From the NCBI GenBank assembly GCA_015067995.1, contig SVLJ01000002.1, positions 62,001 to 126,000 of the forward strand: a stretch of DNA of 64,000 bases, written 5' to 3'. Made by a program: the position numbers and the translations under genes. The notes beneath the pieces are model-generated. The model was given only the letters and a program-made list of their open reading frames with translations, was not told the DNA's origin and did no database searches. Below, piece by piece: positions 19,609-33,497 of this stretch. Positions within the stretch are counted from its first letter, which is position 1, and every line of letters starts with the position of its first letter. Origin of the DNA: Oscillospiraceae bacterium. Lineage in GTDB: Bacteria; Bacillota; Clostridia; Oscillospirales; Oscillospiraceae.

Positions 19609-19846
19609 AAAAAGCCTCCATTTTATACATGCTGTACAAACGACTGAAAGGTTCTTCTCTCTATTATCATATAACTCTGACAGTTTTTCAACCGGGAAAA
19701 CAAAAAATATTACTATAAAAGAGTAAAAAATTACTCACATGTTTCGTGTGGTTCTTGCTAATATTTTTTAAAGAACGTCCTTTTTGCGTCAGCATGCCCG
19801 AAAGTGACGAAACAAAACGAAAAATGTGATAAGTGAGGGAAAAAAC

Positions 19847-21259
19847 ATGGCAAAGAAACCTGTCCAGCTGGACGCAAACGGCCATCGCAGATTCAGCATC
19901 CGCGACAGCGTGGCCTATGCCGCCGGCGATTTCGGCTGCAACATGAGCTTCGCTCTGAAGAGCACAATGGCGATTTTCTGGACCCAGTTCATGCAGTTGG
20001 ATCTGTACTACGCCGCTCTGCTGGTGGTGGTCCAGGTCTGGGACGCCATCAACGACCCCCTGATCGGCTCCATCGTGGACTCTGACAAGCGTCAGTATAA
20101 GCGCAACAAGTTCCTGCAGTACATCTGGATTGGCTCCATCGGCCTCATCGTGGGCGGCGCCTGCTGCTTCCTGCCCTTCCCCAATGCACCCGTTGCCGCC
20201 AAGATGATCATCTTCATCGCCGGCTATGTGGTGTGGGATGCCTTCTACACAGTGGCTAACGTGCCCTATGGCTCTCTGCTGTCCCTGATCTCCACCGAGC
20301 CTGCTGACCGCGCTTCTCTGTCCGCATGGCGCTCTGTTGGTTCTCTGGTGGGCAATATGGTTCCCATGATCATCCTGCCCTTCATCATTTATGATGACAA
20401 TCAGAACCTGATCGGCGAGCGTGTGTTCATTGCCGCTCTCATCATGGGCTTCCTGGGCTTCCTGTGCTTCCAGTTCATGATCAAGAACACCACTATCCGT
20501 GTGGAGACCGATATCACCCTGAAAGAAGATGCTCCCAAGTTCAATGTTTTCAAGGCTATGGGCAACTTCTGCAAGAACCGTCCTGCCGTTGGTGCCACTC
20601 TGGCTGCCTGCGGTATGTTCATCGGTATGCAGGGGGCTGCCACCGCTGTCACCGTTCTGTTCCAGTCCTACTTCAAGAACATTGATGCTTCCGGCATCGT
20701 GTCCGCTTTCTCCATGATCCCCATCATTGCCTTTACACCTCTGGCACGTAAGATGGTCACCAAGTACGGCAAGAAAGAGCTGGCCAAGTTTGGCGCCATC
20801 TGCTCCATGATTGCCACCATTGCTATGCTGATCCTGCCGATCACTCCGGACAATACCGGCATGCTCATTTACATCGTCTGCCAGCTGGTCAACTCTCTGG
20901 GTATGGGCATCTATTCCACCGTGTCCTGGGGCATGATGGGTGACGCCATCGACTACAACGAGTGGAAGTTCGGCACCCGCGAGGAGGGCACCGTCTACGC
21001 TCTGCACAGCTTCTTCCGTAAGCTGGCTCAGGGCTGCGGCCCCGCTCTGGCTCTGGTCATCATGGTGGCTCTGGGCTATGTTGGCGCCAACGAGGGCAAC
21101 CAGACTGCCGAAGTCGCTCTGCGCATGCGTTATCTGGTGGCTGCTCTGTACTTCGTCAGCGCTGCCATGCAGTTCATCGGCCTGGGCCTGGTCTACAATC
21201 TGGATAAGAAGACCACCGCACAGATGCAGGCTGACCTGGAGGCTCGCAAGGCCGGCTGA
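19847..21259 (+). CDS. GPH-family (MelB/GusB-type) glycoside or uronide:cation symporter
   Basis: A 470-residue, 12-helix MFS transporter of the glycoside-pentoside-hexuronide (GPH) family. Family marks are RDSVAYAAGDFGCNMSF near the N-terminus, QVWDAINDPLIGSIVD with the conserved Asp residues of the cation site, and FRKLAQGCGPALALVIM near the C-terminus. Substrates in this family are glycosides or hexuronides moved with Na+ or H+. ATG 19847 is preferred over GTG 19826 because GTGAGGG lies seven bases before it. Followed by a GH2 glycosidase and, after a divergent regulator, by uxaC, it most likely imports glucuronides or a related uronate conjugate. Confidence 0.88.
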   Translation: MAKKPVQLDANGHRRFSIRDSVAYAAGDFGCNMSFALKSTMAIFWTQFMQLDLYYAALLVVVQVWDAINDPLIGSIVDSDKRQYKRNKFLQYIWIGSIGLIVGGACCFLPFPNAPVAAKMIIFIAGYVVWDAFYTVANVPYGSLLSLISTEPADRASLSAWRSVGSLVGNMVPMIILPFIIYDDNQNLIGERVFIAALIMGFLGFLCFQFMIKNTTIRVETDITLKEDAPKFNVFKAMGNFCKNRPAVGATLAACGMFIGMQGAATAVTVLFQSYFKNIDASGIVSAFSMIPIIAFTPLARKMVTKYGKKELAKFGAICSMIATIAMLILPITPDNTGMLIYIVCQLVNSLGMGIYSTVSWGMMGDAIDYNEWKFGTREEGTVYALHSFFRKLAQGCGPALALVIMVALGYVGANEGNQTAEVALRMRYLVAALYFVSAAMQFIGLGLVYNLDKKTTAQMQADLEARKAG

Positions 21260-23709: not shown

Positions 23710-24579
23710 TTACCGCTGACCGCCCCGGGGCAGAAGCTGCCGCGGAGAAACATTGTACCGTTCCTTGAAGGCACGGTAAAAGACGGAATAGTCGCCGTAG
23801 CCGCACATGCGGTAAACGTCGGAAGGGGAGTGTCCGTCGTAGAGCAGCTGCCGGGCACGGAATAGTCGCCGCTGGCTGATGTAGCTGTGGGGCGTGATGC
23901 CCATGTGTCGGCGGAACACACGGGAAAGGTAGAATTTGCTGATGAAGAAGTGATCAGCAATAAAATCCAGCGTCAGATCGAGACTCAGGTTTTCGTCGAT
24001 GAAGGCCACCACCTGTTGCACCAGCTTCTGGGAGGCGGAATCGCTGCTGCCGCTGCCGTCCGCAGCGGGCGCCATGCGGCTGATGAGGATCAGCAGCCGG
24101 GTCACCAGCAGAGTGGTCATGGTGTCGCCGAAGGGGCGCTGATAACTGAACTCCTCGGCGATGGACATGGCACATTCCATAATGGGGTCGCCGTCAGAAG
24201 CCCGGAAGCGGTAGAGCCGCCCCTGGGTGCTTTCCGCCTTTTCCAGCGCCAGAGCCTCCGCCAGCTTCTCGCCCTGTGGAAGGGAACGGACAAAGTCTGC
24301 GGTGAGCCACAGCACTACGCGGCGATACCGGGCGGTGCCGCTGAAAACCGGGTGATGGGGCGTACTGCTGGGGATGATGAGCAGATCGCCGCTGACCAGC
24401 TTGTAGGCTGTTTCGCCGATCATGTAGGTGACGTCACCCTCCATAAAGAACAGAAGCTCGCAGAAATCATGCCGGTGGGGAGCAACTGCCTTCAGATCTT
24501 CGTCGGAATAATAAAACGCTTCGAAATCGCTGCGCAGCATATACTGCCGGGACTCAAAGCTTTTGGGTTGCTGCCGCAT
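23710..24579 (-). CDS. AraC-family regulator with cupin domain, divergent from uxaC
   Basis: A 289-residue regulator. The N-terminal cupin (PHRHDFCELLFFMEGDVTYMIGE, SGDLLIIPSSTPHHPVF) would bind a small ligand. The C-terminal AraC domain reads LDFIADHFFISKFYLSRVFRRHMGITPHSYI, then SPSDVYRMCGYGDYSVFYRAFKERYNVSPRQL. ATG 24579 is chosen because GGAGGT lies five bases upstream; the frame extends 51 bases further without a ribosome site. It is transcribed divergently from the uxaC operon, which makes it the likely uronate-responsive regulator. Confidence 0.88.
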   Translation of the reverse strand: MRQQPKSFESRQYMLRSDFEAFYYSDEDLKAVAPHRHDFCELLFFMEGDVTYMIGETAYKLVSGDLLIIPSSTPHHPVFSGTARYRRVVLWLTADFVRSLPQGEKLAEALALEKAESTQGRLYRFRASDGDPIMECAMSIAEEFSYQRPFGDTMTTLLVTRLLILISRMAPAADGSGSSDSASQKLVQQVVAFIDENLSLDLTLDFIADHFFISKFYLSRVFRRHMGITPHSYISQRRLFRARQLLYDGHSPSDVYRMCGYGDYSVFYRAFKERYNVSPRQLLPRGGQR

Positions 24580-24883
24580 AAGATACCTCCGCACTTTTTG
24601 CAATTTTGACCACACGAAAAGGCAATGCATTCGTCAGTGAAACAGCAGAGTTTCCACTGCCGGAAGTTCTGCTGCTGGATGCAATATTAGAAAAGGTATA
24701 GAAAGACGTTGGAATCTCTGCAAAAAACCTTGCTGCATCAGTCAGTGATGAAATTATATCACATTAGGCAAGATTTGCAATGTTTTTCTTGCAGTCGGCA
24801 ACAAAAGCAAGCGTTGGACATGATACATTAACCATATAGGAAACAATACGCGCAACGAAATCTGAAAGTGGAGGGATGGCCCA
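24580..24883. other. Divergent control region of the AraC regulator and uxaC operon
   Basis: A 304-base gap without a gene. On the minus strand there is a strong extended -10 promoter: TGATATAAT with TATAAT at 24758-24753 and TTGCAA sixteen bases upstream (24775-24780). Several GCAAG/CTTGC/TTGCA motifs cluster at 24768-24815 (GCAAGATTTGCAATG, TTCTTGCAG, AGCAAGCG), plausible AraC half-sites. On the plus strand a weak TTGGAC...TATAGG pair lies near 24813-24840 with a short spacer, so the uxaC promoter probably needs an activator. Confidence 0.5.
24753..24780 (-). promoter_or_regulatory. Promoter of the divergent AraC regulator gene
   Basis: Extended -10 TGATATAAT and TTGCAA -35 with a 16-base spacer, read on the minus strand; the implied leader is about 165 bases. 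Confidence 0.6.
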
Positions 24884-26290
24884 GTGAATTTCTTTGGCAG
24901 CGACCGTTTTGTGCTGACAACCGACAGCGCAAGAGAGCTCTATCAGAACAGCAGAGCTCTGCCTGTGTTCGATTTCCATAACCACCTGTCTCCCCGGTTC
25001 CTGTATGAGAATCCCCATTATGAGAGCATGACTCAGTTCTGGCTGGGCGGCGATCATTACATCTGGCGCGCCATGCGGCTGGCCGGTGTGGATGAGGAAC
25101 TCATCACCGGCAAGGCGCCGGATGAGGAGAAGTTCCTGGCCTGGGCCAAGACGCTGGACGGTCTTGTGGGCTGTCCTCTGTATGTCTGGATTCAGATGCA
25201 GATGTCCTTCCTCTTTGATGAGGCGCCTCTCACCGCAGCCAACGCCGCGGACATTTACCGCCGCTGCAATGAGAAGCTGAAGAGTGATGACTTCACGCCC
25301 CGTGCACTGCTGAAGCGTTTCAACGTCACTGCTCTGTGCACCACCGATGAGCCTTTCGACACGCTGGAGTGGCACGCAAAGCTGCAGGCGGAGGTGAAGG
25401 ATCTGCTGGTGCTGCCTGCCTATCGCCCCGACAAGCTGCTGGCCGCCTCCAAGGATATCTGGCTGGAGAGCGTGAAGAAGCTGGAGATCAGCGAGGGCAT
25501 GTCCATCCGTACGCTGGATGACCTGAAGGCGGCTCTGGTGCATTCGCTGGAACGCTTCGCCGCTCTGGGCTGCCGCACTGCCGACCACGGCTATGAGGGT
25601 CTGAAGTATATCGATCCCGCCGGTGCCGATGAGGCCTTCCTGCGTGCCATGAAGGCCGGCATTGCCACACAGGCTGACGCCGATCTCATCAGCTCCGAGC
25701 TGCTGCGGTTCCTGGGTGAGAAGTATGCCGAACTGGACATGGTGATGCAGCTCCACAGCGGTGCGCTGCGCAACGGCAATACCCGCCGCTATCAGGCACT
25801 GGGCGCCGACTGCGGCGTGGACAGTGTGGATACCGCGCCCGGCGTGCGATCCATCTCCGGCCTGCTGGATACTCTGGAAATGGCCGGAAAGCTGCCCAAG
25901 ACCATTCTCTACTGTCTGGATGAGGGGGAATATGCCGGTCTTGCCACGCTGGCCGCCAGCTTTGCCTGCGGCGGCATCCGGGATAAAGTACAGGTGGGCT
26001 CCGCATGGTGGTTCAACGACCATGAGCGCGGAATGCGCAATCACCTGACCGTCCTGATGGAGAACGCCATGCTGGCCGGTTTCGTGGGTATGCTCACGGA
26101 CTCCCGCAGCATTGGCACCTTCGTCCGCCACGACTACTTCCGCCGCATCCTGTGCGATGTGGTGGGCGAGAAGGTGGACAAGGGCGAGTTCCCCCCGGCA
26201 CTGGCTCAGAAGATCGTCAATGATATCTGTTACGGAAACTCCGTCGCCTACTTTGGCGGCGAAACGCTCACCGCACATTGCGGAATTTAA
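24884..26290 (+). CDS. uxaC: Glucuronate isomerase
   Basis: A 468-residue uronate isomerase that converts D-glucuronate to D-fructuronate (and galacturonate to tagaturonate). Length and landmarks match the amidohydrolase-fold UxaC family: VFDFHNHLSPRFLYENP with the metal-site His residues, ALCTTDEPFDTLEWH, VLPAYRPDKLL, MVMQLHSGALRNGN, LGADCGVDSVD and GFVGMLTDSRSIGTFVRHDYFRRILCDVVG near the C-terminus. The start is GTG 24884 behind GTGGAGGG. It is the first of five genes with gaps of 11-23 bases, so the operon is tight and the downstream enzymes are expected to use its product. Confidence 0.95.
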   Translation: MNFFGSDRFVLTTDSARELYQNSRALPVFDFHNHLSPRFLYENPHYESMTQFWLGGDHYIWRAMRLAGVDEELITGKAPDEEKFLAWAKTLDGLVGCPLYVWIQMQMSFLFDEAPLTAANAADIYRRCNEKLKSDDFTPRALLKRFNVTALCTTDEPFDTLEWHAKLQAEVKDLLVLPAYRPDKLLAASKDIWLESVKKLEISEGMSIRTLDDLKAALVHSLERFAALGCRTADHGYEGLKYIDPAGADEAFLRAMKAGIATQADADLISSELLRFLGEKYAELDMVMQLHSGALRNGNTRRYQALGADCGVDSVDTAPGVRSISGLLDTLEMAGKLPKTILYCLDEGEYAGLATLAASFACGGIRDKVQVGSAWWFNDHERGMRNHLTVLMENAMLAGFVGMLTDSRSIGTFVRHDYFRRILCDVVGEKVDKGEFPPALAQKIVNDICYGNSVAYFGGETLTAHCGI

Positions 26291-26303
26291 GGAGGAGAAC
26301 AAC

Positions 26304-27377
26304 ATGGAATTCAGAAAGAATTGTGCCTACGCAATGGCCACTGTGTCCAGCATGGGTGTCCGCATCACTCCCGCTGACCGTCAGCCCGTCCACACCAGCC
26401 GTATGTTCGAGATGCAGGCTACCAGCGCCGAGACCAACGTGCTGAACGTTGCTTCATCCCTGGGCGCAAAGACCAAGGTGCTGACCCGCTTCGTCAAGGA
26501 CAGCGCCATCGCTTCCTTCATCAAGAGCGAACTGCGCCGCCGCGGCATCGACTATGAGGGCAAGGAGATCGAGCAGGGCGATCCCTGGGGTTACCGCCAC
26601 CAGTTCAACATCGCCGACAGCGGCTTTGGTCTGCGGGGTCCCCGGGTGCTCAACGACCGTGCCGGTGAGGTGGGCCGCACCATGACTGCTGAGGATTTTG
26701 ATCTGGACCGCATCTTCGGTCAGGAGGGCGTCGGTATCCTGCACCTGTCAGGTCTCATTGCCGCCCTGTCTCCCGAGACCACCCGCTGCTGTGTGGCCGT
26801 GGCCCGCAAGGCCAAGGAATACGGCACCCGCATCTCCTTCGACCTGAACTACCGTGCCAGCTTCTGGGAAGGCCGTGAGGAAGAGCTGCGCCGCGACTTC
26901 CGTGAGATCGCCGCACTGGCGGACATCCTCATCGGCAACGAAGAGGACTTCCAGCTGGCACTGGGCATCGAGGGTCCCGAGGCTGGCGGCAAGGGCATCA
27001 CTGCAAAGATCGAAGGCTTCAAGGGCATGATCGAGCGTGTGCAGGCTGCCTACCCCAATGTCTCCGTGTTTGCCACCACCCTCCGTGAGGTCTTCAATGC
27101 AAACTGCCACAACTGGGGCGGCATCATGCTGGCCGACGGTCAGTGGTATGTGGAGGAGCCCCGTGAGATTCAGGTGATGGACCGCATTGGCGGCGGCGAC
27201 GGCTTCGTGGGCGGCTTCCTGTACGGCCTGATCCGCGGCTGGGAAAACGAGAAGTGCCTGCAGTTCGGCTGGGCCACCGGCGCACTGGCTGCCACCATGC
27301 TCACTGACTATGCAACTCCCGCTGACGAGGATCAGGTGTGGAGCATCTATAAGGGCAATGCCCGCGTAAAGCGCTGA
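26304..27377 (+). CDS. PfkB-family sugar (acid) kinase
   Basis: A 357-residue ribokinase-fold kinase starting at ATG 26304 behind AAGGAGG. The C-terminal anion-hole/catalytic motif is [18 protein letters not shown] with the catalytic Asp in GGGDGF. The [10 protein letters not shown] segment resembles that of 2-keto-3-deoxygluconate (KDG) kinases. Such genes are usually annotated kdgK. Here, however, no mannonate dehydratase or KDPG aldolase accompanies it, while 6-phosphogluconate dehydrogenase is the very next gene. The kinase may therefore phosphorylate gluconate to 6-phosphogluconate. The sequence supports a sugar-acid kinase; the exact substrate is inferred from context. Confidence 0.85.
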
Positions 27378-27400
27378 GAAGCGATAAGGAGGCGTACATC

Positions 27401-28852
27401 ATGAAAAAGTGTGATATCGGCCTGGTGGGTCTGGCCGTCATGGGCGAAAATCTGGTGATGAACATGGAGTCCAAGGGCTTCCGGGTTGCCGTATACAACC
27501 GCACCATCGAAAAGGTGAAGAGCTTTGTGGAGGGCCGTGCCGCCGACAAGAACATCGTCGGCTGCTATTCCATTGAGGAGCTGGTGGCCAATCTGGCCAA
27601 GCCCCGCAAGGTCTTTATGATGGTGAAGGCCGGCGCTCCCGTGGATCAGCTCATTGAGCAGCTGATCCCTCATCTGGAGGAGGGAGACATCCTCATCGAT
27701 GGCGGCAACTCTCATTTCCCTGACACTGTTCGCCGCACCGAGTATGTGGAGAGCAAGGGGCTGCTGTATGTGGGCTGCGGCGTCTCCGGCGGCGAAGAGG
27801 GCGCCCTCAACGGTCCGTCCATGATGCCCGGCGGCTCTCCCGCTGCATGGGAGTATGTAAAGCCTATCTTCCAGGGTATCTGCGCCAAGGTGGAAGACGG
27901 CGCTGCCTGCTGTGACTGGGTGGGCGAGAATGGTGCCGGCCATTTTGTGAAGATGGTTCACAACGGCATTGAGTACGGCGACATGCAGCTCATCTGTGAG
28001 GCCTATCAGCTGATGCGTGACGGTCTGGGCATGACTCCCGCCGAAATGCATGACGTTTTCGCCGCATGGAATAAGACCGAGCTGGACAGCTATCTCATCG
28101 AGATCACCCGCGACATTCTGGGCTACAAGGATGAGAAGGGTGAGACCACCGTCAATTACATTCTGGACACCGCCGGTCAGAAGGGCACCGGCAAGTGGAC
28201 TGCCATCTCCGCTCTGGACGAGGGCGTGCCCCTGACCCTCATCGGCGAGGCTGTGTTTGCCCGGTGCCTCTCTGCCCAGAAGCCTGAGCGCGTCACCGCC
28301 TCCAAGGTCTTCCCCAAGGAGATCCCCGCCTTCGAGGGCGACAAGGCTGCCTTCATCGAGGCTATCCGCAAGGCGCTGTATGCCTCCAAGATCATCTCCT
28401 ACGCCCAGGGCTACACCCTGATGCGCACCGCCGCCAAGACCTACAACTGGAACCTGAACTACGGCGGCATTGCTCTCATGTGGCGCGGCGGCTGCATCAT
28501 CCGCAGCGTCTTCCTTGGTAAGATCAAGGAAGCCTACGACAAGAACCCCGCTCTGGAGAACCTGCTGCTGGACGACTACTTCGCCGAGACCATGAAGACT
28601 CTGGTGTCCTCCTGGCGCGAGGTGGTGGCCTATGCTGTCAAGGCCGGCATCCCCATGCCCGCTTTCTCCTCCGCTCTGAGCTATTTCGACGGCTATACCA
28701 CCGCCTGCCTGCCTGCAAATCTGCTGCAGGCTCAGCGTGACTACTTCGGCGCCCATACCTATGAGCGCATCGATCAGCCCCGCGGCCAGTTCTTCCACAC
28801 CAACTGGACCGGTCACGGCGGCAGCACCGCTTCCTCCACCTACAACGCATAA
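27401..28852 (+). CDS. gnd: 6-phosphogluconate dehydrogenase, decarboxylating
   Basis: A full-length (483 residues) 6-phosphogluconate dehydrogenase, which yields ribulose 5-phosphate, CO2 and reduced cofactor. The Rossmann motif is [13 protein letters not shown] at 7-19. The second strand ends in NRT, the pattern that binds the 2'-phosphate of NADP. Substrate and catalytic segments are [21 protein letters not shown] and [17 protein letters not shown] with the catalytic Lys, plus RGGCIIRS near the C-terminus. ATG 27401 has AAGGAGG eight bases upstream. Its location between a sugar-acid kinase and a LarA-type epimerase inside a uronate operon is unusual and is the key to the proposed pathway. 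Confidence 0.93.
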
Positions 28853-28863
28853 GGGCGGGCGGT

Positions 28864-30138
28864 ATGAAGGATCTGTACCTGTATCCTGCCGAGGGCGTGG
28901 CCGCCCTCAGCAGTGAAGAGATCAGGAAGGCGGTGGCGGAGTCTGTCAGCGAGTACGTTGACAGCGGCAAAAAGGTGCTGCTCATCGTCCCGGACTATAC
29001 CCGCTACCACTCCAATGCCGGTCTCATCGCCAACACCATCTACCACACCCTCACCGGCTGCGAGGTGGAGCTCATCGAGGCACTGGGCACGCATTTCCCC
29101 ATGACGGAATGGGAATGCTCCGATATGTACGGTGACATCCCCTTTGAGAAGTTCATTCCCCACGACTGGCGCAGCGACGTGGTGAAGCTGGGCGAAGTCC
29201 CGGCCGAATTTGTTGCCGAGGTCAGCGAGGGTCTGATGACCAACGCCATCGATGTGGAGGTCAACCGCCGTCTGGTGGAGGGCGGTTACGATCTGATCAT
29301 CTCCATGGGTCAGGTGGTGCCCCATGAGGTGGTGGGCATGGCCAACCACTCCAAGAATATCTTCGTGGGCATCGGCGGCGCTGCCATGATCAATTCTTCC
29401 CATTCTCTGGGTGCTTTCTATGGCATGGAGCGCATGATGGGTCGGGACAAGACGCCTGTCCGCATGGTGTTCGACTATGCGCTGGAGCATTATCTCAGCC
29501 ACCTGCCCCTGCACTTTATCCAGACCGTCTGCACCGCTCCCGGCGGTGTCATCAACACCCACGGCCTGTTTATCAGCGCCGACCGCAGCTGCTTTGAAAA
29601 GGCTGTGGAGCTGGCTCAGAAGACCAACCTGATCCTTGTGGATGCCCCCATGGACAAGGTGGTGGTGTATCTGAATCCCGAGGAGTTCAAGAGCACATGG
29701 CTGGGCAACAAGTCCGTCTACCGCACCCGCATGGCCATCGCCGACGGCGGCGAGCTCATTGTGCTTGCTCCCGGTGTAGAGACCTTCGGCGAAGATCCGG
29801 AGATCGATCGGCTCATCCGTAAGTACGGCTACTGCGGCCGTGAGAAGGTCATCCAGCTGTGCGCCACGCAGGAGGATCTGAAGGCCAACATGTCCGCTGC
29901 CGCCCACATGATCCACGGCAGCAGCGACGGCCGCTTCTCCATCACCTACTGCACCGAGAAGGTCAGCAGGGAAGATGTGGAGGGCGTGTGCTTCGGTTAC
30001 ATTCCCTATGCCGAGGCTGTGAAGCAGTACGATCCCGCTGTCCTGACAGACGGCTGGCATACCGGCGCTGACGGTAAGCCTTTCTTCTATATCAGCAACC
30101 CCGCCCTGGGTCTCTGGGCGGACAAAGCCAAATTCTAA
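28864..30138 (+). CDS. LarA-family nickel-pincer hydroxyacid epimerase (probable mannonate/gluconate 2-epimerase)
   Basis: A 424-residue member of the LarA (DUF2088) superfamily, whose members use the nickel-pincer nucleotide to epimerise alpha-hydroxyacids. In lactate racemase of L. plantarum the key residues are His108, His174, Lys184 (covalently tethered cofactor) and His200 (Ni ligand). Here His77 lies in ALGTHFPMTE. His154, Lys164 and His180 lie in VVPHEVVG, NHSKNIF and NSSHSLG, with the same 10- and 16-residue spacings as 174/184/200. PDYTRYHS replaces PDHTRP. The family is known to include D-gluconate 2-epimerases, and mannonate is the C2 epimer of gluconate. The operon delivers mannonate and consumes 6-phosphogluconate, so this assignment is favoured. 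The cofactor genes larB, larC and larE are not in the window. Confidence 0.8.
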   Translation: MKDLYLYPAEGVAALSSEEIRKAVAESVSEYVDSGKKVLLIVPDYTRYHSNAGLIANTIYHTLTGCEVELIEALGTHFPMTEWECSDMYGDIPFEKFIPHDWRSDVVKLGEVPAEFVAEVSEGLMTNAIDVEVNRRLVEGGYDLIISMGQVVPHEVVGMANHSKNIFVGIGGAAMINSSHSLGAFYGMERMMGRDKTPVRMVFDYALEHYLSHLPLHFIQTVCTAPGGVINTHGLFISADRSCFEKAVELAQKTNLILVDAPMDKVVVYLNPEEFKSTWLGNKSVYRTRMAIADGGELIVLAPGVETFGEDPEIDRLIRKYGYCGREKVIQLCATQEDLKANMSAAAHMIHGSSDGRFSITYCTEKVSREDVEGVCFGYIPYAEAVKQYDPAVLTDGWHTGADGKPFFYISNPALGLWADKAKF

Positions 30139-30150
30139 GGAGGATTCATT

Positions 30151-30996
30151 GTGAAACTGCCTTTTCAGATTGACCTGACCGGTAAGGTCGCTGTGGTCAC
30201 CGGTGGCGGCGGCGTGCTGTGCGGTGAGATGGCCAAGGCTCTGGCTGCCTGCGGCGCCAAGGTAGCACTCATCGGCCGTACCCTCAGCTCTCTGGAGACT
30301 GTGGCCAATGAGATCAATGGCGAGGGCGGCTGTGCCCGCTGCTATCCTGCCAACGTGCTGGACCGCGCTGCCATGGAGTCTGCCGCTGAGAAGATCCACG
30401 AGGAGCTGGGCCTCTGCGCCATCCTCATCAACGGCGCTGGCGGCAACAACCCCAGAACCACCACCGACAAGGAATACTACGAGCCCGGCGACATTGACGC
30501 CGAGACCAAGAGCTTCTTCGATCTGGATCAGGAGAGCGTGCAGTTCGTGTTCAACCTGAACTTCACCGGCACGCTGATCCCCACGCAGGTCTTTGCCAGA
30601 GATATGGTGGAGGGCGGCGGCAATATCATCAATGTCTCATCCATGAACGCCTTCACACCCCTGACCAAGATCCCTGCCTATTCCGGCGCCAAGGCTGCCA
30701 TCAGCAACTTCACTCAGTGGCTGGCAGTCCACTTCAGCCGTGTGGGCATCCGGGTCAACGCCATCGCACCCGGTTTCTTCTCCACTACCCAGAACGCAAA
30801 GCTCCTGTGGAACGAGGACGGCACTCCCACTGCCCGTACCGGCAAGATTCTGGCCGCTACCCCCATGGGTCGCTTCGGCACTCCCGACGAGCTCATCGGC
30901 GCGCTGCTGTATCTGGTGTGCGACGAGGCCTCCGGCTTTGTCACCGGCACCGTGATGGCTGTGGACGGTGGCTTCTCGGCATATTCCGGCGTATAA
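30151..30996 (+). CDS. uxuB: SDR-family fructuronate reductase / D-mannonate oxidoreductase
   Basis: A 281-residue short-chain dehydrogenase like B. subtilis YjmF, which reduces D-fructuronate to D-mannonate with NAD(P)H. The cofactor motif is VTGGGGVLCGEMA at about 16-28, followed by NGAGGN. The catalytic Ser-Tyr-Lys triad is in INVSSMNAFT and AYSGAKAA. The long DKEYYEPGDIDAETKSFFDLD loop is typical of the mannonate-type SDRs. The start is GTG 30151 with AAGGAGG seven bases upstream. It is the last gene of the uxaC operon, before a strong terminator. Symbol uxuB is used by function; the classic E. coli UxuB belongs to a different dehydrogenase family. Confidence 0.88.
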   Translation: MKLPFQIDLTGKVAVVTGGGGVLCGEMAKALAACGAKVALIGRTLSSLETVANEINGEGGCARCYPANVLDRAAMESAAEKIHEELGLCAILINGAGGNNPRTTTDKEYYEPGDIDAETKSFFDLDQESVQFVFNLNFTGTLIPTQVFARDMVEGGGNIINVSSMNAFTPLTKIPAYSGAKAAISNFTQWLAVHFSRVGIRVNAIAPGFFSTTQNAKLLWNEDGTPTARTGKILAATPMGRFGTPDELIGALLYLVCDEASGFVTGTVMAVDGGFSAYSGV

Positions 30997-31012: not shown

Positions 31013-31046
31013 CCGCCTGACGCATCTGCGTCAGGCGGATTTTTTG
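31013..31046 (+). terminator. Terminator of the uxaC operon
   Basis: A 12-base perfect stem (CCGCCTGACGCA/TGCGTCAGGCGG) with a two-base loop and a T6 tail. Confidence 0.92.
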
Positions 31047-31082: not shown

Positions 31083-31135
31083 TTGACAAACTGTGGGAGG
31101 AGGCGTATATTGTCAGTTGGTTAGATGAGACTAAC
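31083..31135 (+). promoter_or_regulatory. feoA promoter with a DtxR/MntR-like operator
   Basis: TTGACA (31083-31088), a 17-base spacer and TATATT (31106-31111) form a near-consensus promoter. The palindrome GTTAGATGAGACTAAC at 31120-31135 lies right over the start point, the place for a repressor. A second copy precedes feoB. Sites of this form suit a DtxR-family metal repressor, so repression by iron is likely. Confidence 0.75.
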
Positions 31136-31164
31136 TTCGAATGATCGAAAGGCGGAGAATCGAT

Positions 31165-31383
31165 ATGAACCTGACCAATGCACAGGAGGGAAAGGAATAT
31201 ATCATCCGCGCCATCGAGACAGATGACGAGGAACTGGATGCATTCCTGTTTTCTCTGGGCTGCTACAGCGGCGAGCCTATCACAGTGATCGCGCATAAAA
31301 AGGGCGGCTGTGTCGTTTCCATCAAGGACGGCCGTTATACCATCGACAATCAGCTGGCAGCTGCCATTCTGATCGATGCGTGA
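31165..31383 (+). CDS. feoA: Ferrous iron transport protein A
   Basis: A 72-residue FeoA, a small SH3-like cytoplasmic protein that helps the ferrous iron channel FeoB. The family pattern is visible: LTNAQEGKEYIIRAIE, a Gly-rich turn (LGCYSGEPITVIAHKKGG) and the closing IDNQLAAAILIDA. ATG 31165 has GGCGGAG eight bases upstream; an earlier in-frame ATG (31141) overlaps the operator and has no ribosome site. A hairpin and a second operator separate it from feoB, so the two genes can be expressed in different amounts. Confidence 0.9.
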   Translation: MNLTNAQEGKEYIIRAIETDDEELDAFLFSLGCYSGEPITVIAHKKGGCVVSIKDGRYTIDNQLAAAILIDA

Positions 31384-31391
31384 CCGAATGT

Positions 31392-31426
31392 AAATAACGG
31401 ATGCTGCCAAGCGGCCGTTATTTTTT
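31392..31426 (+). terminator. Terminator or attenuator between feoA and feoB
   Basis: A TAACGG...CCGTTA stem with flanking A/T pairs and a T6 tail, just after feoA. Read-through or the second operator region must supply feoB. Confidence 0.7.
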
Positions 31427-31434
31427 GCAGAATG

Positions 31435-31450
31435 GTTAGTGGATGCTAAC
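31435..31450 (+). promoter_or_regulatory. Second DtxR/MntR-like operator, before feoB
   Basis: GTTAGTGGATGCTAAC has the same arms and spacing as the operator at 31120-31135, and the match extends one G to the left and TT to the right. TTGCAG at 31425-31430 could be a -35, but I see no clear -10. Confidence 0.65.
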
Positions 31451-31508
31451 TTCTGTGTAGAACGTAATCTATCACGGCATGTGTTGTAAAAGTATAGGAG
31501 GAGTCCAC

Positions 31509-33497
31509 ATGAGAATCGCATTTGCGGGTAACCCCAACAGCGGCAAGACGACCATGTACAATGCCCTGACCGGCCGCAACGAAAAGGTAGGCAACTGGGC
31601 GGGTGTTACCGTCGACAAGAAGGAAGCGCCCATGAAGAAGGCGTATGCAGGGGAGGCGGAGGTCATTGCCGTGGACCTGCCTGGCGCATACTCCATGTCT
31701 CCCTTCACTTCGGAGGAGAGCATCACCAGCAGCTATGTCAAAAATGAGCGGCCCGATGCCATCATCAACATTGTGGACGCCACCAATCTCAGCCGCAGCC
31801 TGTTCTTTACCACGCAGCTGCTGGAGCTGGGCATTCCCGTGGTGGTGGCGCTCAACAAGAGCGACATCAACGAGAAGAAGGAGACCAAGATCGACATTGC
31901 CGCCTTGTCTGCCAAGCTGGGCTGCCCGGTGCTGGAGACCGTTTCCACTTCCTCCGAAGGTCTTGCCGAGGTGGTGAAGACCGCTGTCGGTCTGCAGGGC
32001 AGGGTGCAGAAGGCTCCCTATTCGCAGGGCGATGTTGATCTCACCGACAAGGCCGCCGTACAGGCTGCTGACCGCAAGCGCTTTGCGTTTGTCAACAGGA
32101 TCGTTTCTCAGGTGGAGAAGCGCAAGGTACAGACCAACCAGAAGAACTTCCAGGATCAGATCGACGATATTCTCACCAACAAGTGGTTTGGTATCCCCAT
32201 CTTCGCTGTGATCATGTTCCTGGTGTTTGACATTTCCCAGTCCACGCTGGGCCCCTGGATCGCTGATACGCTGGTGGCCTGGCTGGAGGGCTTCCAGGGC
32301 ATGATCGGCGAATTGGTGTCCGGCGCTGCTCCTATCCTGCAGGCTCTGCTGGTGGACGGCATCATCGGTGGTGTCATCGCAGTCATTGGCTTCCTGCCGC
32401 TGGTAATGGTGATGTACTTCCTCATCGCTCTGCTGGAGGATTGCGGCTATATGGCCCGTGCCACCATCGTGCTGGACCCCATTTTTAAGAAGGTGGGTCT
32501 CTCCGGCAAGTCTGTGATCCCCTTCGTCATCGGCACCGGCTGTGCCATCCCCGGCGTCATGGCCTGCCGTACCATCCGCAACGAGCGTGAGCGCAGAGCC
32601 ACCGCTATGCTGGCTCCCTTCATGCCCTGCGGTGCCAAGCTGCCTGTCATCGCTCTGTTTGCCGGTGCATTCTTCGAGGATGCCTCCTGGGTGGGCACGC
32701 TGATGTATTTCGCCGGTATTCTGCTGATCCTGCTGGGTGCTCTGCTGGTGAACCGCATCACCGGCAACAGCAAGAAGAAGTCCTTCTTCATCATGGAACT
32801 GCCTGAGTATAAGATCCCCTCTCTGAAGCGTGCTTTCACTGCCATGTGTTCCCGCGGCTGGGCCTTTATCGTCAAGGCGTTCACCATCATCCTGCTGTGC
32901 AACACCGTTGTGCAGATCATGCAGACCTTTAACTGGAGCTTCCAGGAGGCTGAGACTGCCGGTGATTCCATTCTGGCTTCCATCGCCGGACCCTTCGCGT
33001 ATTTGCTGGTGCCCATCGTGGGTGTGGTTTCCTGGCAGCTGGCTGCCGCAGCCGTTACCGGCTTCATTGCCAAGGAGAATGTTGTGGGCACTCTGGCCGT
33101 CTGCTATGTGGGTCTGGAGAACCTCATCGACACGGAGGCTTTGGAGCTGATGGAAGGCGCAGGCGCTGAGGCTGCCGGCGTGTTCGCCATCACCAGGGTG
33201 GCCGCTCTGGCTTACCTGATGTTCAACCTGTTCACCCCGCCCTGCTTTGCTGCTCTGGGCGCTATGCGTTCCGAGCTCAACGACCGCAAGTGGTTCTGGG
33301 GCGGCGTAGGCCTCCAGTTTGCCACCGGCTATACCGTGGCGTTCCTGGTCTATCAGATCGGCACTCTCGTTGTGGAAGGCACTCCTGGCAAGGGTTTTGT
33401 TCCCGGCCTGATCGCTGTGGCAGTCATCGCTGCCGTGATCGTGCACATGATCCGCAGGACGGACAATGCCGTGAAAGCGGAGGCTGCCAAGAAATAA
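31509..33497 (+). CDS. feoB: Ferrous iron transport protein B
   Basis: A 662-residue GTPase-permease that imports Fe2+ across the cytoplasmic membrane. The G domain has GNPNSGKT at 7-14, DLPGAYS (G3) near 56-62 and LNKSD (G4). The membrane part has the two Gate-type core blocks, VIGFLPLVMVMYFLIALLEDCGYMARA with the conserved Cys and GTGCAIPGVMACRTI followed by FMPCGAKLPV. It ends in RRTDNAVKAEAAKK. ATG 31509 has AGGAGG behind it. The Cys-rich peptide gene follows after 26 bases. Confidence 0.95.
   Translation: MRIAFAGNPNSGKTTMYNALTGRNEKVGNWAGVTVDKKEAPMKKAYAGEAEVIAVDLPGAYSMSPFTSEESITSSYVKNERPDAIINIVDATNLSRSLFFTTQLLELGIPVVVALNKSDINEKKETKIDIAALSAKLGCPVLETVSTSSEGLAEVVKTAVGLQGRVQKAPYSQGDVDLTDKAAVQAADRKRFAFVNRIVSQVEKRKVQTNQKNFQDQIDDILTNKWFGIPIFAVIMFLVFDISQSTLGPWIADTLVAWLEGFQGMIGELVSGAAPILQALLVDGIIGGVIAVIGFLPLVMVMYFLIALLEDCGYMARATIVLDPIFKKVGLSGKSVIPFVIGTGCAIPGVMACRTIRNERERRATAMLAPFMPCGAKLPVIALFAGAFFEDASWVGTLMYFAGILLILLGALLVNRITGNSKKKSFFIMELPEYKIPSLKRAFTAMCSRGWAFIVKAFTIILLCNTVVQIMQTFNWSFQEAETAGDSILASIAGPFAYLLVPIVGVVSWQLAAAAVTGFIAKENVVGTLAVCYVGLENLIDTEALELMEGAGAEAAGVFAITRVAALAYLMFNLFTPPCFAALGAMRSELNDRKWFWGGVGLQFATGYTVAFLVYQIGTLVVEGTPGKGFVPGLIAVAVIAAVIVHMIRRTDNAVKAEAAKK

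Follow-up and report, generated by a model that had tools for sequence, protein, structure and literature searches.

A candidate pfkB-gnd-larA replacement for the lower half of hexuronate catabolism in an Oscillospiraceae operon

The uronate operon and the proposed route

How does a bacterium degrade hexuronates when its uronate operon encodes neither the mannonate dehydratase UxuA nor the 2-keto-3-deoxy-6-phosphogluconate (KDPG) aldolase Eda of the classic Ashwell route? The question is raised by a locus in an Oscillospiraceae bacterium (assembly GCA_015067995.1, contig SVLJ01000002.1, positions 62,001 to 126,000; these 64,000 nucleotides are referred to as the window, and positions are counted from its first letter). 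Between positions 24884 and 30996 an earlier note on this DNA had claimed a tight operon of uxaC, pfkB, gnd, a larA-like gene and a gene for a short-chain dehydrogenase/reductase (SDR), with gaps of 11-23 bases. Profile matches confirmed all five genes on the plus strand, and the gaps are indeed 13, 23, 11 and 12 bases in gene order.

24884..26290, plus strand: uxaC, glucuronate isomerase (glucuronate to fructuronate); PF02614 509 bits; NF002794 479, cut-off 387
26304..27377, plus strand: pfkB-family kinase, proposed hexonate 6-kinase (gluconate or mannonate); ATG start; PF00294 84 bits
27401..28852, plus strand: gnd, decarboxylating 6-phosphogluconate dehydrogenase; TIGR00873 763, cut-off 427
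28864..30138, plus strand: LarA superfamily group 18 (larA18), proposed nickel-pincer-dependent hexonate 2-epimerase; NF052594 'nickel-dependent putative hexonate epimerase' 620, cut-off 500
30151..30996, plus strand: SDR, fructuronate reductase / D-mannonate oxidoreductase of the PRK08277 type; NF006132 420, cut-off 281

Searches with the kinase used 26298-27377, which is two codons longer than the frame starting at 26304.

We propose, with a probability of roughly 0.62, that this operon encodes an alternative to the lower half of hexuronate catabolism, taking the place of uxuA-kdgK-eda, with the epimerase acting before the kinase. Glucuronides would be imported by a GPH-family symporter and cleaved by a GH2 enzyme, both putatively encoded upstream of the operon. 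UxaC would then yield fructuronate, which the SDR would reduce to D-mannonate, and the group 18 LarA protein would invert C2 of D-mannonate to give D-gluconate, using the nickel-pincer nucleotide (NPN). Phosphorylation of D-gluconate by the PfkB kinase would give 6-phosphogluconate, and its decarboxylation by Gnd would give ribulose-5-phosphate and regain the reducing equivalent that the SDR had used. The proposal is carried by the gene content, by the co-occurrence of the genes and their mutual exclusion with uxuA in 150 genomes, by a distinct kinase group and by intact active-site residues in the epimerase.

Gene content of the host genome

The host assembly (G000; 2.31 Mb, 40 contigs, 92% complete, 3.9% contamination) gave no uxuA match with PF03786, a family that matched in 5 of 14 controls and was the only dehydratase family searched for this step, which supports the claim that the host lacks uxuA. 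The further claim that KDPG aldolase is missing holds for the operon. It does not hold for the genome, where two PF01081 genes lie on contig 25 outside any uronate context, so that a reading of the genome as free of eda was discarded. The gnd of the operon is the only PF00393 match found in the assembly, and no zwf was detected there. An Edd-type fate of 6-phosphogluconate was also rejected, because no Edd above cut-off was found in the 19 genomes searched, the host among them; the host match in that search (269 versus 708 bits) is probably IlvD. Each of the two eda-type genes lies near a hydroxyacid dehydrogenase gene and one also adjoins a gene for a group 22 NPN enzyme. On contig 25, L073:8088-11350 combines genes for a hydroxyacid dehydrogenase, for Eda and for a group 22 isomerase that depends on NPN (472, cut-off 400), perhaps another sugar-acid route.

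Co-occurrence in related genomes

Each gene family was searched in the same set of 150 genomes of the same family. NF052594 was above cut-off in 17 genomes, with additional incomplete copies in G142, where it lies at a contig end, and in G031. Genes for Gnd were found in 19 genomes, uxuA above cut-off in 25, uxaC in 38, eda in 41, and a kinase with at least 61% identity to that of the window in 17 (19 matched at E 1e-40). We refer to pfkB-gnd-larA18 as the trio and to the 17 genomes with both gnd and larA18 as trio genomes. This co-occurrence has a Fisher p of 2.6e-18, or 3.1e-15 for the 15 genomes left when the two incomplete larA18 copies are excluded; these p-values and the one below ignore shared ancestry and count for less to that extent. 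A window-type PfkB kinase is present in 16 of the 17 trio genomes, the exception being G031 with a 35% identical one near gnd, and outside them only in G149, where it adjoins a gnd cut by the contig end. Two genomes have gnd without larA18, namely G016, with a gnd fragment at a contig end, and G078, the sole genome with zwf. Since zwf was found in 1/150 genomes and in none of the trio genomes, glucose-6-phosphate is an unlikely source of 6-phosphogluconate.

None of the 17 trio genomes encodes uxuA. Among the 38 genomes with uxaC, 20 have uxuA, 12 have the trio, none has both and 6 have neither (p 6.9e-6). Counted by genus (n=30), 15 have uxuA only, 8 the trio only, 2 only genomes with neither, and 5 are mixed. 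Eda was found in 3/17 trio genomes versus 19/20 genomes with uxaC and uxuA. The carbon flow put forward in the earlier note, from mannonate through 6-phosphogluconate to ribulose-5-phosphate, is thus supported by comparison, through co-occurrence and the exclusion of uxuA.

The linkage of these genes was also compared across 41 other group 18 loci. Within 10 kb of larA18 we found gnd in 33, the SDR in 24, a kinase of at least 60% identity in 19, uxaC in 9, the tagaturonate epimerase UxaE in 5 and a mannitol-dehydrogenase-type UxuB in 2. The gnd-larA18 linkage is therefore not a matter of chance. In relatives a common frame of uxaC, SDR and GH2 genes is retained while uxuA-eda-kdgK is exchanged for pfkB-gnd-larA. 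The uxuA-bearing relative at L091 has the order GH2-uxaC-uxuA-SDR-eda-kdgK, with a GH2 gene product 73% identical to that of the window, where GH2 is followed by uxaC-pfkB-gnd-larA-SDR. It also speaks for the route that at L060 a split transketolase pair, scoring below the cut-offs of the whole-enzyme transketolase equivalogs, lies directly 5′ of pfkB.

The epimerase

The NPN-binding and catalytic residues of LarA (R75, K184, H200; D72, H108, H174, K298), named in the available text of PMC7583248 together with a substrate signature common to LarA groups 18-20, are conserved in the window protein and throughout the alignment rows that cover them (40-41 of 43 rows, the rest being gaps). The signature, EV/S after the catalytic His and W in helix 11, is present as E155 V156 and W279 in every covering row. 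A structure model of the protein (predicted local distance difference test score, pLDDT, 92.3) has as its best match 4nar, the Thermotoga maritima GntE2, with a template modelling (TM) score of 0.83. According to the same source, enzymes of groups 19 and 20, GntE1 and GntE2, epimerise free D-mannonate to D-gluconate (Desguin 2020), entry of mannonate into the pentose phosphate pathway is probably made possible by GntE2 (with reference to Rodionova 2012), and the guess for group 18 is that it epimerises hexonates. Table 1 as available from PMC7583248 does not list group 18, and the term is absent from the available text of PMC11770544. The basic residues conserved in group 18 favoured neither a phosphorylated nor a free substrate. 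The family match, the conserved residues and the signature support, by comparison, a LarA-like protein of the mannonate/gluconate epimerase kind, as the earlier note had suggested.

The host genome holds a C-terminal piece of a second group 18 gene at the end of contig 7 (L055:8335-8778), 44% identical to that of the window and cut by the contig end. It is followed on its 3′ side by 3-hydroxyacyl-CoA dehydrogenase-like and butyryl-CoA:acetate CoA-transferase-like genes.

The kinase

The best match of the PfkB kinase in both sequence and fold is the 2-keto-3-deoxygluconate (KDG) kinase of T. maritima, 2afb (TM 0.84 for the model). For the comparison, kinases were grouped by at least 60% identity to the window PfkB or at least 55% to the KDG-type kinase of L034; those of the first group adjoin gnd and those of the second adjoin eda. 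Before tree building, sequences interrupted by in-frame stops (L079, L084) were removed, as were matches with no more than 250 aligned residues. In the resulting tree of 49 kinases, for which the program warned that the bootstrap had not settled and that some long branches meet, the 24 gnd-linked kinases fall together with support of 100/100 and the 14 eda-linked ones with 97/93, and the window-type kinase does not group with the latter. Arg121, Arg186 and Asp301 are common to both groups. In the gnd-linked kinases GGG at 42-44 is replaced by TSA, and Tyr104 and Tyr119 by Asn; we take both tyrosines and the GG pair to contact KDG. Our reading of these substitutions suggests a KDG-type kinase shifted towards a fully hydroxylated hexonate. 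The view that the neighbouring kinase differs from KDG kinase is thus borne out by the tree and by co-occurrence, on comparative grounds. To our knowledge, no PfkB-family gluconate or mannonate kinase has been described. In the literature searched, the term 'mannonate kinase' was found only in the available text of PMC6978723.

At two further loci (L046:5736-10416 and L052:4565-11704) SDR, gnd and larA18 occur with a relative of pyrophosphate-type phosphofructokinase and a HAD protein, and no PfkB was found there; this points to a possible alternative kinase. A Cof-type HAD phosphatase gene lies inside or beside the operon at L057:11631-12623, L058:11944-12948 and L063:10349-11158.

Points against the proposed route and alternative explanations

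Several observations weigh against the replacement route with the epimerase first. G031 is a weak trio member, its larA18 being a 148-amino-acid frame inside a contig and not near its gnd. Two genomes with larA18, G046 and G143, have uxuA and no gnd. The six uxaC genomes with neither route include G149 with its kinase and cut gnd. Five of the trio genomes (G031, G082, G094, G138, G148) gave no uxaC match; fructuronate may therefore not be the only entry. At 14 of the 33 loci that pair gnd with larA18, no kinase reaching 60% identity was found within 10 kb. Several of these are cut by contig ends, L065 has the kinase on another contig, L053 has a 37% identical kinase, and L054 carries in the place of PfkB a gene resembling FGGY gluconokinases (423 bits, cut-off 648) and truncated at the contig end, which in itself speaks for the proposed route. 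Locus L034, from a genome outside the set of 150, carries both modules, having uxuA, eda and its own KDG-type kinase in addition to pfkB-gnd-larA. No assayed group 18 enzyme and no assayed member of the window kinase group was found in the literature searched, as far as its text was available. Finally, the available text of Valk 2020 (PMC6978723) reports the kinase step first in Lactobacillus suebicus. As a separate observation, G148 keeps GH2 and GPH genes beside its module.

Valk's result leads to an alternative with the same carbon flow in the other order, in which PfkB would be a mannonate kinase and the group 18 protein a 6-phosphomannonate 2-epimerase. The two genes would then encode the activities that Valk measured in L. 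suebicus extracts with the genes left open. This fits with kinase and epimerase being inherited together and with group 18 being distinct from the tested groups 19 and 20. However, group 18 shares its substrate signature with those groups, whose enzymes act on free mannonate, and the group 18 genes of L068 and L069 are accompanied by a GntP-type permease and by none of the kinase types searched for; for these two reasons we infer that the epimerase acts first. Moreover, Valk's candidate kinases are described in the available text as homologues of gluconate kinase, not of PfkB. We regard the kinase-first order as unlikely, though it deserves more weight than the other alternatives. The substrates and the direction of the reactions are likewise inferred.

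A different substrate for the epimerase, such as altronate or an L-hexonate, with gnd and pfkB serving gluconate from another source, would agree with the five trio genomes lacking uxaC, with the group 18 genes of G143 and G046, whose neighbours are genes for a Zn-dehydrogenase and for an IlvD/Edd-type dehydratase and not gnd, and with the acyl-CoA-type surroundings of the 44% identical paralogue in the host itself. Nevertheless, 26/41 loci have a gene for a mannonate-type SDR or for a UxuB-type enzyme no more than 10 kb from larA18, gnd is even more frequent there, and the trio and uxuA exclude each other, which makes this substrate quite improbable. The classic Ashwell route, finally, would have PfkB as KDG kinase, a mannonate dehydratase that escaped recognition, and one of the eda genes elsewhere. 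The likeness of the kinase to 2afb and the two eda genes of the host speak for it, but the uxuA search with PF03786, the one dehydratase family covered, gave no match, eda was not found in 14/17 trio genomes, the kinase forms a separate group with substitutions at 42-44, 104 and 119, and gnd and the epimerase would be left without a role. Furthermore, L034 has a separate KDG-type kinase, so that its PfkB is not needed as one. PfkB was therefore rejected as a KDG kinase, and we consider the Ashwell explanation very improbable indeed.

The surroundings of group 18 genes differ at L068:3088-12635 and L069:1340-9092. At both loci larA is flanked by genes for a Zn-dehydrogenase and for an IlvD/Edd-type dehydratase, with genes for the GntP-type permease and a GntR-type regulator; L068 also has uxuA and an SDR gene nearby. 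In such genomes, where gnd is missing, the epimerase appears to serve another purpose. The L068 cluster was at first read as running in reverse, from gluconate to mannonate to UxuA. We now treat this as one possibility only, because of the dehydratase and the Zn-dehydrogenase beside larA18.

Relation to known pathways

The earlier note had called the route new, and this did not stand. A GntE-GntK-Gnd hexuronate branch was proposed for T. maritima by Rodionova 2012 (as cited in the available text of PMC7583248 and PMC6978723), and the epimerisation (PMC7583248) and, in L. suebicus, a redox-neutral flow (PMC6978723) have been reported. The Thermotoga branch and the window system have in common the sequence from mannonate through gluconate and 6-phosphogluconate to pentose phosphates, and a LarA-superfamily epimerase in hexuronate gene clusters; in the window the epimerase gene is linked with gnd and with genes of hexuronate breakdown. 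The window epimerase belongs to group 18 whereas GntE2 belongs to group 20 (24% identity in the model-4nar alignment), and the window kinase is of the PfkB family whereas we take the Thermotoga kinase to be of the FGGY type. In addition, the host gave no match for uxuA (by PF03786) or zwf, whereas the T. maritima controls matched for both.

In the isomerase/phosphoketolase pathway of L. suebicus, as far as the available text of Valk 2020 (PMC6978723) describes it, uronate carbon also passes from mannonate to 6-phosphogluconate and, by 6-phosphogluconate dehydrogenase, to ribulose-5-phosphate in a redox-neutral manner, and the lower isomerase half is unused. That system is fed with galacturonate and known from activities in extracts, with the kinase first and the genes open, whereas the window system is known from genes alone. 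With the Ashwell route (uxaC-uxuB-uxuA-kdgK-eda) the operon shares UxaC, a mannonate-forming reductase and the operon frame as seen in L091, but has larA18, pfkB and gnd in place of uxuA, kdgK and eda. The route itself is thus known in kind; new are the proposed group 18 epimerase, the proposed PfkB hexonate kinase, the module swap in gut Clostridia and the cofactor puzzle described below. The operon offers candidate genes by which gut and rumen Clostridia could convert uronates to pentoses in a redox-neutral way, and predicts a PfkB-family gluconate or mannonate kinase as well as a function for LarA group 18. Such a route is called useful for fermenting pectin-rich feedstocks in the available text of PMC6978723.

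Cofactor supply

The most surprising part of the system is the lack of cofactor genes, which also counts against the proposed route. Seven of the 17 trio genomes (G000, G005, G008, G038, G061, G073, G123) have no larB, larC or larE above cut-off, so that the supply of the cofactor is unexplained. Four of them are 94-98% complete, G000 is 92%, G073 84% and G123 81% complete. LarC is no commoner in trio genomes (9/17) than outside them (68/133). In the seven trio genomes that have all three genes, larB, larC and larE lie together, and one assembly gap could therefore hide all of them. NPN synthesis by the host is a need of the enzyme and not a mark of the LarA family, and the cofactor might be taken up; the word 'uptake' is absent from the available text of PMC11796402. 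The epimerase gene looks conserved in genomes without larBCE, judging from a dN/dS of 0.14 between G000 and G005 (as L032) and of 0.04 between G061 and G073, the latter at a nearly saturated dS. A tentative explanation, to which we give slightly less than even odds, is that larBCE have been lost while the epimerase stays under purifying selection, with NPN or a precursor coming from neighbours or from unknown enzymes. In that case NPN would be a traded, vitamin-like cofactor, and the missing genes raise the question of NPN sharing between gut bacteria.

The host, with no larBCE above cut-off, also carries the group 22 NPN enzyme gene and the second group 18 piece. In the single-contig genome G128 a gene resembling LarAH10 (494 bits, cut-off 540) is present, and a search there for LarC and LarE gave no match above cut-off.

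Genes and sites around the operon

Four further features lie next to the operon in the window.

19826..21259, plus strand: GPH-family symporter, probable glucuronide uptake; TIGR00792 221.5 bits (below cut-off 231); PF13347 201 bits
21362..23632, plus strand: GH2 enzyme, probable beta-glucuronidase; PF02836 106 bits; NF050095 beta-glucuronidase LacZ4 565 (below cut-off 950)
23710..24630, minus strand: AraC-family regulator, divergent, with cupin N-terminus; PF12833 78 bits
31013..31038, plus strand: intrinsic-terminator-like site 3′ of the operon; 11-bp stem, loop of 4, T-run

Genes 80-81% identical to the GPH symporter adjoin the module in L056 and uxaC-SDR in L075, and GH2 homologues adjoin both kinds of operon (L057, L075, L091). 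From its position, the AraC-family protein is the probable regulator of the operon. Terminator-like sites number 8 in 7 kb versus 4.4 expected, and the one at 31013-31038 has the longest stem. Further downstream, the interval 31083-31521 holds a strong sigma-70-like promoter (11/12) upstream of a gene at 31479, which we take from its translation to be FeoB-like, as well as a repeated GTTAG...CTAACTTC motif.

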